Positions 9,304 to 64,000 of a DNA stretch of 64,000 nucleotides are shown piece after piece. The DNA is taken from positions 23,009-87,008 of the forward strand of contig VCJN01002796.1 of the NCBI GenBank assembly GCA_006384855.1, read 5' to 3'. This DNA comes from Tetraselmis striata. Taxonomy: Eukaryota > Chlorophyta > Chlorodendrophyceae > Chlorodendrales > Chlorodendraceae. A model generated the notes under the pieces. That model had not been told where the DNA came from. It searched no databases and saw nothing but the letters and a program-made list of their open reading frames with translations. Within the stretch, counting starts at the first letter, position 1. Each line of letters opens with the position of its first letter. Both the position numbers and the translations under genes were made by a program.

Positions 9304-12300
9304 ATTTCTATTGCCAAGTATTCGCCGCCTTGGCTCACCAACCTTTGTGGTGCTTGCCACAGTTGGGTTTCTGTCATAGACGGCACTCCGAATGCTACGT
9401 GGTACGAGGAAGCTCTCCCAGTGACGTACACTCTGCAGCGCGTTGACGCCTCTGGCCAGCTTTCCGCTGTAACCATCGCGCCTGGAAGGGACATGTACGT
9501 GTCAACGATCGTCAAGTACGACAACCGGAGGAAGCACAACTCCCACGAATGGTCTGTCCACGCACTCGGGCGATGGTGCAGCCCCAGCAGCATATTACGT
9601 CCAATGTGGCTTTGTTCCGAGGACAGATTGTCGGGGCTGGGTGCAGATTGGGGCTGGGGGACTGGGGAAAGCAAGCAGGTAGGTGGGCCCGCGCACTGAA
9701 GGCTGCCGTCTGCCGGCGCCACAGGTATCTGCGCGCGTTTGCGCAGCAGTATAGCTCGGAGCTGATGTACCTGACGGATGCGGGCACAACGGCCGACAAG
9801 CACTGCTTGGCGCGGCTCACGACTTTCATGGAAACCAACCAGGATTATGCCGCCGTCACTGGGTACCAGCGCATGCAGGTATCAACTTGGCTGGGCACAA
9901 TTCCCGGCTTTAAGCCGCCGGCTCGTACCCCATCAGGCCGGGCCCTACGCAATGGCATACGACCGGCCGCCGGCCATGCATGAACATCGCACAAGCAGCA
10001 GGACTGACACGCGGAGGCTCTGAATCATTTGCACACCGGTAGTCGAGCCTGACTTGACGCTGTGTCTGCTCCGCCGCAAGGACCTCCCGCCTGGCGCGTC
10101 GCTGGTGCAGCGCATCCACTGGGCCGTGCAGGTGTACGAGCTCGGGCCTGCGATGTGCGGCAGCATCAAGGCATCCCAGGGCCTCATGGGGTTCATCCTC
10201 ATCCTGAGCGGCCCGTGCCAGATGATCCGCAGCAAGGACGCCCTGCGGGAGGAGTTCCTGGACGCCTTCTTCCGCATGATCAACATGGAACCGGTGCGGC
10301 GGTGTTAGCGCGGCCGCTTTCCGTCTGGGCTCGTGTGGAAGGGAGACTGCTATTTGGTGATGCAGTGCTAGCAGGCCATTCTGCTTGGGGAGGAGCAAGC
10401 TGCGTCTCCCCTTGGCCACGTTTTGACCCCCCGCCCCGCTTTCTCCCCCTTCCTGCCATCGACAGGCAGATGCAGGCATCATGCACGCAAACTTGCAGCT
10501 CACCGAGGACATGGCCTTCGGCAGCTACCTGTACTCTCTGAGCCCTGGCAAGAAGACAGGCTACGTGCCGGTGAGGCGCTCGCGGCTTGTGGGATGGGTA
10601 CCTGCCATGTCAGCATATACTCACAATCTGCCGTGCAGCTGCTGTCAGTGGATGAGAGCACAATAACACTATGTACAAGAATATCTATACGTATGTTGGT
10701 GTTCATGTTTACATGAATATCATCACGGATGTGGTCGTCATCGGCGCATGCTTAATACGCGCTATCCGATGTGCACGGAGCCGCGCCGATGCCAACAGTG
10801 CGATTTCGAACCGCCTTGAAACACCTATATCGTCGCGGTCCCTTCCGCGCAATTCACCGGCTTCACGTGGACCCTGGCGGAGCTGTCACCTGTCACTGCG
10901 AGATATAAAAACGTCGTATGATGTATCGCTATGTCGACGTCAGCTCGCCCGTGATTTTGCAGCCACGCCCGTGTACTCGTGCAGTAGTCCCAAATACGCC
11001 CGTAGCAGTCTTGGCATTATTATTTTATCGCAGGTACCGAACATAATTAGGGATTCATAGGGCATCATTCATGTTGCGGTTTTTACGGTCATCAGCCCAA
11101 TACCGATTCGACGGTACTAGCAGAACTTGTCGGAATGCTGCCGATACTTACTTACGGGTACTACACCCGTGGCAGTCTCCTATTATTCGACATCAGAATT
11201 ATTCTATCGCAGGTACCGAAAATTCGGGCATCATTAAATAATAAAGTAAAGTAAAGTTCACCCCGGGACGTCGGCCGAAGTCGCCCCAGCACTTGACCCC
11301 TTGCGCCAACTGCAGTCGTAGCTCTGGCATAGCCCGTAGACCATTGCCGCATTCGAACCCCGAAGGGCTAATGCATCAACCGGGGAAACCCAGGACACGC
11401 CGGGACGAAATTGCCGGAAATGCATCGGCCAGGATTCGATACCCGGACCTCTCGCGTACGAAACGACCGCTCAACCGAGCGAACAAAGGATGTACCTTGT
11501 TGGCATCATTAGTAATTTTGCGGTTTTTCCGGTCAACCGAATGCCGATTCGACGGTACAAGTACTTGTCGGAATGCTGCCGATACTGATTACTTATTACG
11601 GGTACTGCCTGTACGTATGGGTACTACCATCGCCGTGTTACCATTATATCGGAATCGCCGCGAAATATCCCTACACTAGCGTGTCAGTGGCAAAAATCTA
11701 AACGGGGTTCCTGCATGGCCGTGCTTTGTCACTCTTCCAGCGTTTTATTTATTTCCTATTTCTATTAGATTCTGGTATTAGTATTGCAGATGTCCTCATC
11801 GTAATAGTCTGTTTGGACGCGATAGTAAGGATTACGTCAAGCGCGTACAAATCGTGAACGTATTCTTATCGTAGTGCGTCCGTACGCATTCCTGTAACGC
11901 CATATAATTCAAAACAATGTACGTAGATTTTCCGGGATAATCATCAGTATACACACTAAAAATGAATTATACTTACCAACACATATTCTGTTCTGTTCTA
12001 TTCTATTCTATTCTATTCTATTCTATTCTATTCTATTCTATTCTATTCTATTCTATTCTATTCTATTCTATTCTATTCTATTCTATTCTATTCTATTCTA
12101 TTCTATTCTATTCTATTCTATTCTATTCTATTCTATTCTATTCTATTCTATTCTATTCTATTCTATTCTATTCTATTCTATTCTATTCTATTCTATTCTA
12201 TTCTATTCTATTCTATTCTATTCTATCCCATTCTATGCTATTCTATTCTATTCTATTCTATTCTATTCTATTCTATTCTATCCCATTCTATGCTATTCTA

Positions 12301-14192
12301 TTCTATTCTATTCTATTCTATTCTATTCTATTCTATTCTATTCTATTCTATTCTATTCTATTCTATTCTATTCTATTCTATTCTATTCTATTCGATTCTA
12401 TTCGATTCTATTCTATTCTATCCCATTCTATCCCATTCTATTATTTTTATCTATTATATTATATTTTGTTATGTAATGCATAGTATATTGTATTGTATTC
12501 TAATCTATACTACTCTATTCCTATTGCATTCTACCCTATTTATTCTGTTATATTCTATTTCATTGAAATTATTCTAGTCTATTCTAGTCTATTCTCATTG
12601 CCGAACTTGCATCTTAATAGACGGGTTAGTTTGCTGACTTGAAAAATACTAAGTTACCGCTTTACCGTATCTTGCGTCCAATGAAATGCAGACCCTCTAC
12701 ATAAATGTACCCGCCATAGCATATTATCCGCGTACAGTTATGAAAAAGTATAAGTTCTGCTGCACCCGCCACATCCGAGCGACATTCGTCCGTTCCGGGA
12801 CATAATCCGACATCTTATAGAGAACAGCTCTTACTGATGGCCCCTCTGTGCTCGGTTCTGCAGGACGCATACTTCAACTATGATGCCGAAACATTGCCGA
12901 AACGGTTCCTGCAGCAGCGCCGCCGATGGTTCAACGGCATCTTGGCCGGCATCAATGGCGAGGTCAACCCTTTCAGCGGGATATGGTGGAACGCGTCCTC
13001 CAAGCCCCTGCAACTCAAGATGAGGAACTTTATCGCAATGATCCAGCAGTACATCCTCGTTTCCCAGGTGAGGACCACGGCAATCCCTTCAGAGTCCTCG
13101 ATGCTCCCCCCCCCCTTCAGCATCTCTCCCTGTCAGTGAGAGATTCCACTTGATGCCAATGGTCCCCCGGAACCTTTAAAAAAAAAACGGTCTCTACACT
13201 TTTTATCTTTGGGACTTTTGTTTCTATGTCCACAAATAAATCCCGTCCACGAGATTTCAAAATTTCATCCCGCACAACAAACTCATTCACCTCCGTCTGC
13301 ATGGACTTGTTGTAGTGCCATGCTAATCAGCGCGCATGTGCCATGCAGTACCTCGTCGTCCCCTCCATCCTGATGCTCAACATCTTCAATGCACTCCGCG
13401 AGGTGCACGCCATGTTTGGCATGCCGGCATACCTGGAGTACGCCCTGCCATGTGCGGGCGTCGTCAGCTACGCGGGAACAATAGCCGTGTGGCTGGTTTG
13501 CCACCGCAGGTAAAAAAGAAGGCGCACCCCGGCCACCAAACGCCCGACCAAGCTCTTGTCGTGCTTGCAAGCAATGCCGTCACATTCTGAGCATCCGCCC
13601 CGCTGATTGGCCTGCCAGGAGCGAGTACATTCCGTGGTTGTATCATGTCATGCTGTTCGTCACGCTTGTGGTGGGAGTGATTGCCTACGCCTTTATGTAT
13701 TTGTTCTTCATCGGCGTCGGAGCCGCGTACGGCCCATACGCCATGGCCGGCGTGATTGCTCTCGCCCTGATCAGCGTCATGGCGCCCGTCGTGTCCTCCC
13801 TCGTGATCGGCGACCGCTACGGCACTGTCGCCAACCTCTACGTGCCCGTTATACTGGCCTTCCTTCCCATGTGGAACCTCATCTGGGCCTACGGGCTGGC
13901 GAGGTTTTCAGACATCACGTGGGGGAACCGGCCGCACGAGAGCGAGTCCCGCGACGGCGCCCGCCGGGACGCCTTCATGAACAAGTCGCATGCCCTGGGC
14001 GCATGGATCATCGTCCTGTACCTGCTCAGCAACGTGGCGTGTGCGGCTCTCCTTGTCGCGGCCGACCGATTTTGGGGCAGCGTCAACCTGGGGCTGACGA
14101 TCTATCTCTCGCTCGTCGCCCCCTTCGCGCTGTCTTGCGTAGGGGGTCTCCAGTACAACATCCAGTACGCGCTCAAGTACAAGTACCGATGA
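8100..14192 (+). CDS. Chitin synthase-like family 2 glycosyltransferase, 10 exons
   Basis: Predicted 710-residue membrane glycosyltransferase that would polymerise UDP-GlcNAc into chitin or a related polysaccharide at the plasma membrane. Exons that keep frame: 8100-8325, 8706-8797, 8885-9066, 9363-9551, 9725-9878, 10048-10293, 10466-10570, 12864-13067, 13349-13509 and 13619-14192. Visible motifs in order: VVTAYNE (about 85), FDGW (about 160), KHNSHEW (about 224), LTDAGT (about 243), GPCQMIR (about 336), TEDMAFG (about 376) and QQRRRW (about 415). These match the donor-binding, acidic and product-binding motifs of chitin synthases. About six hydrophobic helices follow, with WGNRP in the loop where fungal enzymes have WGTK. 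No myosin motor or chitin-binding domain is present. The first ATG is chosen by frame; an upstream exon is possible. The acceptors before exons 3 and 6 lack good pyrimidine tracts and are the weakest joins. Confidence 0.88.
11325..11490 (-). repeat. tRNA-derived SINE-like repeat, copy 2 (antisense in intron)
   Basis: On the minus strand the segment begins GCTCGGTTGAGCGGTCG, resembling the tRNA D-arm/box A region. Shortly after comes CCGGGTATCGAATCCTGG, a five-pair T-stem with one G-T wobble and a box B-like loop. The following 130 bp match copy 1 at 6.75-6.90 kb. A second GGTTCGAATGC lies farther downstream. The layout of tRNA-like head plus unrelated body suits a SINE. No A-tail is obvious. 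Confidence 0.55.
11727..12625 (+). repeat. Dispersed repeat D, copy 1, interrupted by a microsatellite
   Basis: The flanks match 24.28-24.87 kb in the same order: CTTCCAGCGTTTT / CTTCTAGCGTTTT, GTCTGTTTGGACGCGAT / GACTGTTTAAACGCGAT, a CGCATTCCTGTAACGCC / CGCATTCCGGTATCACG block, and CATTGCCGAACTTGCATC / TATTGCCGAACTTCCATC near the 3' end. Here the stretch before the last block has expanded to several hundred bases of TTCTA units. Confidence 0.65.
11986..12440 (+). repeat. (TTCTA)n microsatellite, about 90 units
   Basis: A near-perfect pentanucleotide array of about 455 bp. It starts with TTCTG variants and has interspersed ATCCCATTCTATGC variants at two places in the middle and TTCGA variants near the end. 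Translation yields a meaningless YSILF repeat that is open in frame, which is why long spurious ORFs appear here. Confidence 0.97.
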
Positions 14193-55500: not shown

Positions 55501-57543
55501 CTGTCTGTGCCTGCATCGGCAAGGGAACAGGGGGCTGCGGGCTGAGCGCCTGCGCTGCGCGGGGGTCCAGGACAACGACGTCGAGCCGCAGCTGAAGGAG
55601 CAGTGGACCAAGCGAGACGCCCCTACCAGCGAGTTTCTGCAGACGTACAAGATGCAGCCGGGGCTGTACCCGCTGGACATCCCGCCAGCGGTGAAGGAGC
55701 ACCCAGGGGTGCGCCGCGCCGCCGCTCCCTCGCTGCCCATGCGGCGCCAAGGGCGCGTGGACCATGACGGAGAAGGGCATATTTAGCTCCCGCGCCTCCC
55801 CCAACATACATGGGGCGCATTGTACCCTCCCATGGCCCCGAATCCTGACCACGGCGTGCCTCTTCCCCCGAGCGGCTAGGTCCCCACCCTGCTGGAGGCC
55901 GCCGCTGTGCTCGGCCCCATGATCCACTACCGCCAGGCGGGCTTTGCCGCCAACCGGCGCACGCAGCGCATGGCCGGCCTCGCCATCATCGAGGCCGCGC
56001 AGGCGCTCAGGCAGGCGATAGACGCGCACAAGATCGGCACACCGGTGAAGCCCACCTTTTTTCAACCCCCCCCCCCCCCCCCCCTCCCCCTGCTGTTGGG
56101 AGTTTCTGGCCCCTTTAGGCGGCTGGCTTGCTGGAGTGGCTGATCCCCCCCCCCCCCCCTTCCCCCTGCTGTTGGGAGTTTCTGGCCCCTTTAGGCGGCT
56201 GGCTTGCTGGAGTGGCTGACCCCCCCCCCCCCCTTCCCCCCTCTCATTACCCCGGTGCGCCGCCGCAGCTGCAAGTCTCAAACGCCGGCTCCTCGGGCGT
56301 GTACGAAGACAGAAGCGGCAGCCACGAGTTTGGCTGGCGCGACATGTACGACATCCTCGTGCGCTGGCGGCAGCTCACCGAGCCCAACGACGCGGTGGGT
56401 GTGCCTCCGCTGCCGCCGCTACGGCGCTCGCTGTGGCGGCGCAGAGGCCCGCGTGCCCGCCGCCCGCGGAGCGAAAGTCAGCTGACTCTGCGCGCGGTGC
56501 GGCAGGTGATCTGGATCGACCGCCTGTCGGACACGGGGCTGACGGAGGGCTTTGGCGCGCACACGCCCATCGTGATCGGGCAGTACCTGAGCCAGCGCTA
56601 CGGGAGCAACCTGCCGCGCGGCATCGAGCTCTTCAAGGAGGAGGTCGCGCAGTCGGGTACCCCCCCCCCCCCCCCCCTCCCCCTTTCGCTGGCACCCTCA
56701 GCCGCTCCACCCCCTGACGCCGCCAGCCTCCCTGTCTCTGAACCCGGCCCTGCCCCTTCCCGCCAATACCTCGGCACCCCGCTGCAGGCGGCTTCTTCAG
56801 CGTGGACAACCAGTGGATGCCGCTGGAGGCGGAGCAGCTGGGCGCGATGGCGCAGGCCACCACCCTGTCCGACCTGTACCGTGCCATGCAGTGGGTGCCC
56901 TGCCCGCCTGCGATCCGGGAAAAAAGGGGGGGGGGGGGGGGGCGCCTGCTGGTGGGGTGGTTGCGCGCAGCCGCCGTCTGAGCCTGCTCGCCGCTGCCAG
57001 GACCTCGGGCTGGACCACCATCATGATCAACAGCACGCGGGAGCCGGAGCTGCGGATGGAGGCCACCCGCTTGACGCTGCTGCGGCGGCCAGGGAAGGTA
57101 CGAGGCCCCGGGGGGGGGGGGGGGGGGGGGGGTTTCTCCGCTGTGCGGTGGCTCGCCTGCGGTTGTGGGGCTATTGGTGCGCAGACATTGGGCTGGGTGG
57201 CGCCAGGGTCGCCGCATCACACCACAGACGACTCTGTTGATGATCGGTTCCTCTAGGAAGAGGCCAATCGGATTAAACGGCGCGGACAGGGACGGCGAGA
57301 GCGAGGTGGCGCGCGGCTTGCGATTCCGCGCAGGAGGCAGCCAAGCCTAACAGGGCAGCGCTGACCGCTGCGGCTGCCCCCCTTCTTCCCCGCCCCCCCC
57401 TCCCCGCGCGGCAGGCCGACTCGTTCGACTTCTCCATCCGCACGCCCGTGACCCCCTCGCGCATCGTCCTGTTTGCCAAGGAGATGGACGCGCTGTGGGA
57501 CATGTTCATGGAGGCCGCCGCCGCGGGTGCGCCCCGACTCCCC

Positions 57544-58604: not shown

Positions 58605-59988
58605 CTCCCTAAAAACCCCACGGTGCCGACTGACGCCGGCGTTACACCCCGGGCAGGAGTACCGGGAAGCCGAGCAGCGCGCTTTCGTGCCGTGCCAGCC
58701 CAGGGCGGCCGTGACGATGCGCATGCCTAGCGCACGCGTGTCCCGCTATGCTGGCGTTGTGTGTGTGTCGGAACACTCGTAGGGGCGTTATTATAGTTAT
58801 CCCAGTTGTGGATGGAGGGAGGGCATCAGCCGAGCGTCAGCGTGTGCTGCGCATGTTGCTGATTCACAACGGGCTGCGCATTACAGGTTTGTGATGGGTT
58901 GCTTGGGCGGAATCACCGATCGAAAGCATCGCAGCCGTCTATTTAGAAACACTTTGGGGCGGGGGAGCGGTCACAAGCACCATCGCCTTTATACTATTGC
59001 CGCGCAGAAAGTACCTGTACCAGCCGGTGGGCGCTGCCGGTGTACCTGTTGCCGTAGACACGGCGTCTCTATAAGATGATCATCAGGCGTGCTTGCGTGA
59101 TCCGGTTCTGCAGCATAAACTGCCTAGCCATCGCGTGTCTGTACCTGCTGCGCGCGGCGACTATATTAACACGAGTACGGACTCTCGACAGTGGTCATTC
59201 ATAAACATTAATGAAATGCAGTAGGATGGTGGGTAGGTATGCGGGTGTGCATTTCTTCCTACAAGAAAAAAGGAATTGGTTAACGCGACAATCCGGCGCC
59301 GTCAGCTTTTGTGGCTGTTCGCGCCCCTGCTGGTCAGGCAGGGCACCGCGGGAGGTGGTGCTAGAGCTAGAGCTGCTAGTGACTGTGATCATTCTGCTGA
59401 AAACTCTGACTCAGCAGCGTCGTCTCCCTCTGCACAATGAAATCGCACAGCGCGTTCTGCACGCTCAGAGGGGCTGCAGTTAATTGGTCACCGCCCACTT
59501 CAGCGGCAGCTCTGTAACACTTGATGCTGCTGATGTAGATTGGGATGGTGTGCATTCTGGATGTTCGGAGGGTGCGTATGAGTGATGCTGACGTGTCGTG
59601 CTTTACGTGTGCACGTGCCGCCGGGTGCATGCCACCATTGAATTGGGTCTTTCGCCGCTACATGTGTCCATGTTGCGCCTACTTTGTCCAACAACGCCTC
59701 TCGTATCAAAATAACGTGCACCGCCATACACACGGGCACACACACACATGCACGCATGCGCCCAAGCCGCGAAGGCGCACAAGCACCCACATTCCCCCAT
59801 TCCCATGAACAAGAAAAGCGCAATATTATAGCGTAAACGGTAGAGGCCTCTATACTTCACTTTTGACTCACTGAAAATGGGACAATTTACTAGCTCACGG
59901 CCAAACAATGTACTACAGACATACATATACAGCGCAAAGTACTGTACTCGCCGTCGCCGCCGCCATCCCTTCTCTCGCCCACTCGAGT

Positions 59989-60024
<36 letters not shown>

Positions 60025-60147
60025 CTGCGCAGTACCACTACCTTTCCACCACCGCCAAGGCCGCCCCAGAACCCAAACCGTGGCCGACAGCCGTTCATAG
60101 GATCCCACGCGACACTCACTGGCCTGCGGGGTCTTAACTTTCATAAA
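58605..60147. other. Intergenic region upstream of the cassette gene
   Basis: Open frames here show no recognisable family. There is a CA-rich stretch at 59.73-59.76 kb, and a poly-G run of about 32 bases sits at 59993-60024, about 125 bp before the predicted start codon. Confidence 0.5.
59993..60024 (+). repeat. Poly-G tract upstream of gene
   Basis: About 32 consecutive G, one of the longest homopolymers in the window; potential quadruplex former. Confidence 0.95.
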
Positions 60148-63100
60148 ATGGCGGAGACGCCCGGATCCGTGACAGGAATGGACTCCGCCTACCTTCGGCG
60201 TAGGTCTGCACGGCTGGTGAGTAGGGATGCTGCCGCCTCTTACGTCCCTGCGTCCCTATCCCTCCTGCCCTACTTCCTATCGAGAGTCGCAGCTCACGCC
60301 CTTACTTACTGCCGTGCAGGCTGGTGTAGGCCCCATCCCGCTGGAGCTGCCTAGCACAGCCCCCCCCCGCACGCGACAACCCTCACCAGAGTCCGCCAGC
60401 CGGCCCGCCCGACCCTCTCGGCCAAGGGCTGTGTCTGCTCGACCTGCCCGACGCTCCCGTCGCGTGGCGTCCCTGGCCGCTGGCCGTAGCCAGGCCGACA
60501 CGCAGTCAGTGGCGGGTCAGGGTCAGGGCCCGTCAGCGGCAGAAAGGTTGCCGAGCAGCTTGGTTGCAGTTGGCGATGGAGCCGGTTTGGTTGCTACGCC
60601 TGGCGATAGCAACGCTGGCGAGAGCGGCGGGCAGGTAGCCGGCGCGTCGGCAGTCACACCCTCAGGACATGCGCCCGTACTAGGCCGGGGTGAGGGCGTA
60701 CCGGATACCACAGGCTCGGAGGCTAAAGGCGAGACATCCATGCGCACGGTAAGACCTGTGGAATACACGGGATGTGGGGGGGGGGGGGGGGGGGGGGGGG
60801 GGGGATGGGCATGGTGGTTCATGAATTAACACTCTTGCATTCTATCTGCCCCGCCACAGGTTCCAACAAAGGACGACGCAGGACCCAGTACCTCTAGGGC
60901 TGCGCGAAGTATTTTTGCGCCCGTGGCAGTGCGCCCCACCTTCCACAACCACCCCGCGTGCTGTTATTGGGTAGTCTCGAATGCGTTCTGTCCTCCTTCG
61001 GAACGGAATGGCGGGAACCAAACACAAATGTCGTCGTGTCAACCTTGTGCGACAGGTACCCCCACCCGACGAGGCAGGCCCGAGTACCTCTAGGGCCGCA
61101 ACATTTGGACTGCCGAATGTGGCGGTACGCCCCCCCCCTCCCGCCTTTACTTAGTTGTCTCTGTTTCGTCAGGCATGGAGTGGTAATTGCTTCATGTCCC
61201 GGCCGGCGAATTAGTTTGCGCGTGAAACTGACACAAAACATTGCCGCGTAGGCAGTCAACCCCATCCACCGAGACCCGGCAAAAGGCAAAGGACCAGCTA
61301 ACCCACTACCATCTAACCCACAGGTGGAGAAAGGCAAGGCCAAAATGCTGTCGCCTATTCCCGAAGAACTTCACTGCGCATTTCCGCCAAAGACTGAGGA
61401 AGAGGTCGAAAACGATTGGCTCACCGAGCGCGCCAACCACATAGTTCATGAGAGAAAAATAGAGCACCAGAAGTACGTCCAACTTGCCATTCAAGAGTGG
61501 CAAGACGCAGGGGAACACAGAGGTTACCTCGAGGACTACATGGTAACCGCAAACGTGGGGAAACAACTTGCTGAGGAAGCAGAGGCGGAGTACTCGCGCC
61601 TCGTGAACAGAGGGGCTCGGCTGATGCAGGTTACCACCCATGCCTTGCCCACCTATGTTCCCAACCTGATGGTCTCCAGTATGACCTCGTAGGTAAGACT
61701 TGCATGGACTGCTGCGTACTAAAGACCCCTTCTCCGGTTTACTTGAAACGATTACACCCTTCGTGGGCAGGCGAGGACAGCGCGGAGCCCTCTGTACAAC
61801 AACCGGCTGAGGGCGTAGCCGGACCTGGGCATGAGGAAAGATCGCCTGAGCCGCGTGCCTCGCAATCGACTGTGACCAACTCTTCCGCACGCGGTGCGTC
61901 TGTTTCTCAAGACTCGTTGTACGACGCTACCCCACCCGAATATCACCCCAGTTCGGACGGGGGGGTTTCGGAAGAGGACGAGCCGGCTCCGCCAATGGCA
62001 CCTGCGTCTCCGGCTATCGAGCTTCTCGACTTACCCACGCCTGAGGTACTGCCTTGCTTTGGCCCTCCTGCAAGCGTGAGCCTTAATCTTCTTTAATTTC
62101 TTGTCTGCAAGTACTTATGCGGTGCCCCGTGTTGCCCAGCCTGGCCGACCACCTCTGCAAGTTGATCTTCGTCTACGCCGCGGCTGGGACCCCAATTACG
62201 AGAACTTCGACGACTGGTTCTCGGTATGGTATGGCCCGAGCCTGAGTCGTTGTACGGCGAGGATTACGGCGACTTGCACTATGCGATGTGCAAGTGGCTC
62301 CGAGATTGGGAGTTCGATAAATTTGACATCGAGTATCAGTACGCCTTCCTGGAGGGTTTCCTGCGCTTATGCCCGCCGCCGCCTGGCGTGGAGTTTCGTT
62401 TATGTCGTGCGAGCATGGACTACTCAAGGCGAGGCTTTCCGAATTTTGTGTCTAGGCACGAGTCGTCATGTGGCCGCCGAGACCCGGCCCCCGAAGGCGT
62501 ACTTGTTTTTTGGTTCCACATAACGTATCCCTGGGGTTCGAGGGCATGGGAGCGGCCAGAGTCGTTGCCGTTTCCCAAGTCCACTGAAGCGGGCGGGCAC
62601 TTCGCCATCGCGGTATGGACAACTCGTGACGGGCGTGCAGTTGCGCCGGTTTTCCTATATGACAGCTTGTATCGTGTCCCATCGGGTGGTGTATGTCGAC
62701 CAGCGCCAATACGTTGGTTGCGAGAATGCCTTGTGGGAGATTCTGCGCACCTGTTACTTTTACGGCATGCTGATTGAGTCGCCATCGCACGTTGCCCCCC
62801 GCAGACCCCGAGCGCAGGAGCTGGTCCGAGCGGCGCACCCCCTCGCGTGTTTGCTGCCGAGCCGCAGCCCGCATCGACAGGGGCCAAGGTGGGATGGCCG
62901 CGCTGCAACTGTGTTGCCACTGCGCACCTGTTACTTTTACGGCATGCTAATTGAGTCGCCATCGCACGTTGCCCCCCCCCCCCCCCCCCCCCCCCCCCCG
63001 CAGACCCCGAGCGCAGGAGCTGCTCCGAGCGGCGCACCCCCTCACGTGTTTGCTGCCGAGCCGCAGCCCGCATCGACAGGGGCGCCGGCTGTCGCCAAGG

Positions 63101-63872
63101 TTGGATGGCCGCGCTGCACCTTTGCTGCCGCTGCGCACCACTTACTTTTACGGCATGCTAATTGAGTCGCCATCGCACGTTCCCCCCCCCGCAGACCCCG
63201 AGCGCAGGAGCTGGTCCGAGCAGCGCACCCCCTGGAAGCGCTCCGCACGATTTGCAGCCGGCATCGACAAGGGCGCCGGCTGTCGGCAAGGTGGGATGGC
63301 CGCGCTGCAACTGTGTTGCCGCCGCGCACCACTTACTTTTACGGCATGCTAATTGAGTCGCCTTCGCACGTTGCCCCCCCCCCCCCCCCCCCCCCCCCCC
63401 AGACCCCGAGCGCAGGAGCTGGTCCGAGCGGCGCACCCCCTCGCGTGTTTGCTGCCGAGCCGCAGCCCGCATCGACAGGGGCGCCGGCTGTCGGCAAGGT
63501 GGGATGCCCGCGCTGCACCTTTGTTGCCGCTGCGCACGAGTTACTTTTACGGCATGCTAATTGAGTCGCCATCGCACGTTGCCCCCGCAGACCCCGAGCG
63601 CAGGAGCTGGTCCGAGCGACGCACCCCCTCGCGTGTTTGCTGCCGAGCCGCAGCCGGCATCGACAGGGGCGCCGGCTGTCGCCAAGGTGGGATGGCCGCG
63701 CTGCACCGTGTTGCCACTGCGCCCCTTGATACTTTTACGGCATGCTAATTGACTCGCCATCGCTCGTTGGCCCCCGCAGACCCCGAGCGCAGAGGCTGCC
63801 CCGAGCGACGCACCCCGTCGCCCGAAACAGAGCAAGACTGCAGAGATGCTCGCCAAAGTTACACAGCAAAAG
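60148..63872 (+). CDS. Multi-exon gene with possible Ulp1/C48-like region and exon-cassette array, 3' incomplete
   Basis: Exons ending in phase 0: 60148-60216 (ATG), 60320-60748, 60860-60922, 61056-61118, 61324-61629, about 61776-62075, a central block about 62112-62732, then cassettes to 63872 and probably beyond. Early exons are Ser/Pro/Ala-rich; 61324-61629 is helical (EEVENDWLTERANHIVHERK). The central block includes GGHFAIAVWTTRDGRAV and PVFLYDSLYR, recalling the His and Asp motifs of Ulp1/C48 cysteine proteases. A Gln/Cys motif (QRQYVGCENALW) that would complete the triad lies just downstream but in another frame. The block also changes frame near 62223. So it may be a pseudogene, contain indels, or be a coincidental match. 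It could be a host gene or a transposon-encoded protease. Confidence 0.5.
60860..61118 (+). repeat. Duplicated pair of 63-nt phase-0 exons
   Basis: 60860-60922 encodes VPTKDDAGPSTSRAARSIFA plus P, and 61056-61118 encodes VPPPDEAGPSTSRAATFGLP plus N. Each is preceded by CAG and followed by GTGGC(A/G)GT. Both are exactly 21 codons. Confidence 0.75.
62733..63872 (+). repeat. Tandem array of six intron-exon cassettes
   Basis: Six units of about 190-210 bp. Each has an intron (GTGGGA donor, then a conserved CTTTTACGGCATGCT(A/G)ATTGA, GTCGCC, a C-tract of variable length and CAG) and a short exon beginning ACCCCGAGCGCAG. Exons: 62805-62888 (84 nt), 63004-63099, 63195-63290, 63403-63498, 63591-63686 (96 nt each) and 63780-63872 (93 nt). 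Frame 0 reads TPSAGAGPSGAPPRVFAAEP. The last unit diverges after its first half into a Lys/Gln-rich end (RRPKQSKTAEMLAKVTQQK) followed by a GTGTGT donor. Confidence 0.85.
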
Positions 63873-64000
63873 GTGTGTACGTGATTTGTGCCGTTGCCCG
63901 TCACTCATCATTTTAAGCTGTAGGTAAGACTTGCGCGCTTTGTCAGGGCCTGAAGGGTGGGCAAAGGCAACCGTGCAAGCATAACCCGGCATTTGTGAGC

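Follow-up and report, generated by a model that had tools for sequence, protein, structure and literature searches.

What is the run of short, evenly sized exon-like units at one end of this Tetraselmis striata sequence, and do the units belong to a spliced gene? The window analysed here is the whole stretch of 64,000 nucleotides from contig VCJN01002796.1 (assembly GCA_006384855.1, 224 Mb), and its end coincides with the end of the contig. The six exons and five introns of the original prediction were reproduced in all positions and lengths, and the introns (92–115 nt) do differ in their C-tracts as it had described, with longest C-runs of 5 to 28. TRF independently called the same array as a tandem repeat (scores 1280 and 1624), and a search with the array DNA, in which 40 of 382 candidates were scored, gave at least 130 genome matches; the array is therefore not a product of chance. 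An assembly artefact was ruled out because separate copies carry arrays of different units. The features of the window copy are as follows.

~59812..64000, + strand: damaged transposon copy, running from the left end of the element up to where the contig stops; the contig does not include the right part
61252..61689, + strand: 146-aa open frame, free of frameshifts and stops in the window copy
62080..62742, + strand: 5' part of a 504-codon exon, aligned with positions 1–669 of this exon in copy L020, with two frameshifts and truncated by a deletion; its left limit marks where the open frame begins, no splice site being demonstrated there
62743..62751, + strand: 9-bp microhomology where the deletion joins long-exon and cassette-intron sequence, present in both
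62743..62804, + strand: what is left of a cassette intron at its 3' side, including a branch-like TGCTGAT at 62768–62774 and the acceptor CAG
62805..62888, + strand: cassette exon 1, 84 nt, of a 12-nt-shorter type also present in L028, L034, and C1487
62889..63003, + strand: cassette intron, 115 nt, longest C-run 28
63004..63099, + strand: cassette exon 2, 96 nt
63100..63194, + strand: cassette intron, 95 nt, longest C-run 9
63195..63290, + strand: cassette exon 3, 96 nt, with a central block of an alternative type
63291..63402, + strand: cassette intron, 112 nt, longest C-run 27
63403..63498, + strand: cassette exon 4, 96 nt
63499..63590, + strand: cassette intron, 92 nt, longest C-run 5
63591..63686, + strand: cassette exon 5, 96 nt
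63687..63779, + strand: cassette intron, 93 nt, longest C-run 5
63780..63872, + strand: terminal exon of the array (93 nt), whose end is distinct; going by the frame, a donor at 63873 or 4 nt beyond is possible

The 1.5 kb upstream of the array had 41 matches on 39 contigs, the window included, of which 36 showed at least 92% identity, and the flanks were mostly ca. 97% identical to that of the window. The array thus belongs to a dispersed family and is not a one-off segmental amplification; a local segmental duplication was ruled out on the same ground. The window copy and the copy on C705 are not alleles, since their left flanks differ. The left limit of homology fell at 59804–59812 in the seven loci reaching that far, and L036 aligned only from 60714. 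The right end of C2232 corresponds to the inverted left end of other copies over ca. 75 bp, with different outermost bases, and the same inverted right end was found in L021 and C1487. Target duplication was examined in these last two, the copies with both ends present. The 9-bp sequence ATTCGGTAT occurs on both sides of L021, a deletion derivative. In C1487, no flanking duplication of 9–11 bp was found, the one 8-bp match lying off the ends.

On the right side of the element, a minus-strand ORF gave a weak match to the MULE domain (PF10551; 19 bits, E 0.0019, below the cut-off of 27.6) in a 137-aa fragment. A CxC...CxH motif, which characterizes the SWIM-type zinc finger in MULE transposases, was recognized by eye in this ORF, for which Pfam returned no SWIM-type hit. 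The element is a DNA transposon with terminal inverted repeats (TIRs) that looks Mutator-like. Its full length would be about 13.5 kb with 16 cassettes, an estimate obtained by adding the absent left portion to the coordinates of C2232. Elsewhere in the genome, 45 MULE-domain matches were detected, several with open frames of >300 aa; none of them is on the contig of a parsed copy. A search of viral contigs for relatives of two proteins, with scans that reach close relatives only, confirmed none, and five pattern-matching stretches failed in tblastn.

On the plus strand, the 146-aa frame is followed by the 504-codon exon, then by the array and, further downstream, by a methyltransferase-like frame. 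In L020, the long exon comprises 1512 nt and ends in phase 0. This exon is under purifying selection, with a pN/pS against L020 of 0.58 within the family and 0.41 for the diverged relative L043. The corresponding values were 0.68 for the 146-aa frame (family copies against L020) and 0.41 among copies for the methyltransferase-like frame (L020 8547–9341), which is likewise under purifying selection. In contrast, the frame directly after the array is not (pN/pS 1.01). By eye, the long exon is protease-like, of the Ulp1/C48 type. The catalytic residues of Ulp1/C48 cysteine proteases follow the order His-Asp-Cys, and the 20-row alignment of the long exon contains H (20/20), D (19/20), and C (20/20) in this order, although 308 of the 504 residues are invariant anyway. 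Searches of Pfam (to E 5), NCBIfam (to E 1), and PDB sequences (to E 5) yielded no Ulp1/C48 match for this exon. The downstream plus-strand frame looks like an adenine methyltransferase, again by eye, with no match in the Pfam, NCBIfam, and PDB sequence searches.

The phase-0 donor predicted at 62733, upstream of the array, turned out to be wrong. This position is internal to an exon, next to a deleted stretch, and is no exon end: a longer exon aligns across the region in 18 of the 19 other parsed copies, the exception being C1487, whose stretch does not align. In two copies, the distance to the true donor of the long exon was measured as a further 843–844 nt, and this donor is GT in 19/19 other copies and CAG|GT in 14/19. 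Compared with L034 and L020, the window copy lacks ca. 844 nt of the long exon together with the donor part of the first intron, so the donor at 62733 is an artefact of the deletion. The window copy also lacks a number of cassettes. Since the long exon bears both this deletion and two frameshifts, the window copy is probably dead, and it is unlikely to make the protein. Being near the contig end, the deletion could instead be a misassembly.

To describe the array across the family, we parsed 20 copies, namely the window and 19 picked non-randomly from the array matches that had enough flanking DNA; because of this selection, the presence of an array in 20/20 copies is no test. A profile search recovered 298 units, and removal of the last unit of each array left 278 complete cassettes (in L025, the last unit is no terminal exon). 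Counting the last unit, the arrays contain 6 to 44 cassettes, that of the window being the shortest. The variable copy number that had been proposed therefore exists, between copies of the element. L020, L023, and L029, which are ca. 99% identical downstream of the array, have 16, 18, and 15 units. Exon length was 96 nt in 224 cassettes, 102 nt in 12, 84 nt in 8, and 90 nt in 1, and not a multiple of three in 33. Thus, 245 of the 278 exons preserve the frame, in support of the proposal that a module of intron plus symmetric phase-0 exon has been amplified. Intron lengths ranged from 69 nt (at the edge of L025) to 130 nt. The 96-nt exons encode 28% Ala and 24% Pro. Unit identity in sampled pairs of ordinary length was ca. 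96% within one array and, between elements, 90.4% for exons and 92.6% for introns. Set against flanks that are mostly ca. 97% identical, these between-element values indicate a faster turnover of the arrays than of the remaining element sequence.

We then weighed whether the cassettes are spliced as exons. GT was kept in all 278 complete cassettes and AG in 273, and the branch-like ATGCTAAT lay upstream of the acceptor as an exact match in 206/277. Against splicing, the host part of the window had no excess of branch-like motifs before a pyrimidine tract plus CAG (1/16 and 0/10 sites). We consider it roughly 65% probable that the array consists of tandem phase-0 exon-intron cassettes within the plus-strand gene of the transposon, which would encode an Ala/Pro-rich linker of variable length. 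In intact copies, the constrained 504-codon exon would, once transcribed, be joined by phase-0 splicing to a series of N cassettes, each of ca. 32 codons, and these in turn to the terminal exon. The translated cassettes would form an Ala/Pro-rich linker, probably disordered. N changes quickly, most likely because the near-identical units undergo slippage or unequal exchange, and the linkers encoded by separate copies of the element would thus differ greatly in length while the frame stays intact.

Another explanation is that the array is a satellite-like repeat within one long intron, so that the upstream exon is joined directly to the terminal exon and the splice sites are passengers from a founder unit. 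This reading agrees with the behavior of the cassette peptide: within the family, the pN/pS of the cassettes was 1.52 in frame and 0.92 and 0.79 in the two wrong frames, that is, their amino acids are without purifying selection, and the exons are conserved no better than the introns. The 33 cassettes whose length is not a multiple of three also fit it. The retention of GT and AG noted above speaks against it, as does the pattern of indels. By eye, only the 84-nt type (four elements) and the 102-nt type (three elements) are identical exon indels shared by at least three elements, and both preserve the frame, whereas one-base length variants are widespread in the 5' part of the intron (45 nt in 5, 46 nt in 16, and 47 nt in 14 elements). 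By length alone, 95-nt exons occur in six elements and 97-nt exons in three; inspected by eye, these represent different indels, except for a T deletion common to L025 and L027. Frameshifted cassettes accounted for 7/113 in copies with an intact long exon and 26/165 otherwise (Fisher P 0.022), in a comparison whose grouping is post hoc and whose cassette units are not independent. No spliced exon-exon copy turned up in the genome, which counts against splicing, and retrocopies were dropped as a proof of it: the search had 13 loose matches, and its reversed control had 7.

Two diverged relatives, L043 and L044 (75% and 73% DNA identity), bear on both readings. In L043, the 96-nt exons and the 93-nt terminal exon recur, with ca. 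78% identity in the cassettes, no boundary separates the first unit from the upstream exon, the two being fused, and all five exons with an acceptor have lengths that are multiples of three. The same applies to 6/7 exons of L044. Frame preservation at such low identity argues against the long intron. On the other hand, 5/7 exons of L044 contain stops, and TGCTAAT is not kept in the cassette introns of L043; these two observations give more weight to the long intron and less to spliced cassettes. Compared with L043, the cassettes had a pN/pS of 0.65 in frame, the other two frames giving 0.76 and 1.20; the values for the comparison with L044 were 1.30 in frame and 0.82 and 0.73 in the wrong frames, and L043 against L044 gave 1.02. 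We also observed a second family (L037, L039, and many contigs) with related arrays, represented by at least 211 matches. Its copies were 92–94% identical to the L037 piece among the best matches listed. These arrays are 64–67% identical to that of the window in most rows and 84–85% over one 390-bp stretch. They keep the splice motifs, and their exon lengths are often not multiples of three, which again favors the long intron. On the whole, we regard the long intron as rather unlikely.

A different possibility is a role at the DNA or RNA level, such as binding proteins or regulating splicing, the coding capacity of the array being incidental. The introns are conserved about as well as the exons, or better (in L044, exons 75.0% and introns 84.0%), and the second family keeps its arrays despite poor reading frames, both in favor of such a function; the frame is, however, mostly kept in the window's family and in L043, which makes this very improbable. 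Least credible of all is a continuous, unspliced plus-strand coding repeat of ca. 63 residues, which suits copies such as L020, L029, and L023, with 11/15, 9/14, and 8/17 introns that are stop-free and a multiple of three in length, and fails in most cassettes because the introns are spread over the three length residues (138/103/37, just the 138 being multiples of three) and 189/278 contain an in-frame stop in the exon frame, among them 5/5 of the window copy; unit length (ca. 189 bp) is likewise a multiple of three in just 132/278. In the subfamily of L020, L023, and L029, intron retention would keep the frame, many introns being of this type.

Under spliced cassettes as the preferred reading, what seems to be retained is the arrangement for splicing and not the peptide, which would suit a low-complexity linker. 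It is conceivable, though we are inclined to doubt it, that selection keeps the splice sites and phase, not the amino acids, and that linker length is an evolvable trait of each copy, possibly widened by exon skipping.

Tandemly repeated exons encoding 81-base repeats were reportedly described in Schistosoma mansoni by Davis et al. in 1988. Tandemly repeated exons and micro-exon genes of Schistosoma are treated in PMC10526429; as here, short exons, mostly multiples of three, are repeated in one gene, but those are genes of an animal host and this is a gene of a transposon. The titin PEVK region (PMC6469411) similarly uses many small exons to encode a repetitive, elastic segment, and its exon number differs between species; in contrast to this single host gene, it is the dispersed copies within one genome that vary here, and the units are ca. 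96% identical within an array. Plant Mutator-like elements with a ULP protease domain, KI-MULEs for example, have been described in which the protease gene lies opposite to the transposase, and with 9-nt duplications (PMC2528002). The present element may resemble them in its 9-bp target duplication (one copy), its MULE-like transposase (a weak hit, below the Pfam cut-off), and a ULP-like gene opposite to it (protease identity by eye); it differs in the methyltransferase-like ORF downstream (by eye) and in the exon array, which the accessible part of that paper does not mention. Tandem genomic duplication of AGGT segments is described as generating introns with usable sites (PMC3443670). The origin by duplication is alike, but what is present here in many successive copies is an entire exon-intron unit. 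Human genes in segmental duplications are altered by internal tandem repeats with units averaging ca. 30 bp (PMC2812944); there too, the repeat number changes exon/intron structure among paralogs, whereas the units here are splice-complete cassettes of ca. 189 bp.

Repeated-exon arrays are thus already known in a few host genes, and what is found here are dispersed copies of one transposon gene. Among the matches listed in our literature search, there was no paper on such an exon-intron array in a transposon, which is not proof of absence. Within a single genome, the number of cassettes varies strongly among copies whose identity outside the array is mostly >92%, and these copies provide a natural series for studying the amplification of exon-intron modules. 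They also offer a system for asking how the splicing machinery handles dozens of near-identical consecutive introns and if linker length influences the success of the element.

TRF detected two other tandem repeats in the window, a TATTC pentanucleotide array at 11984–12595 (ca. 122 copies, 85% match) and a 76-bp minisatellite at 56069–56240 (2.3 copies) with C-tracts inside.
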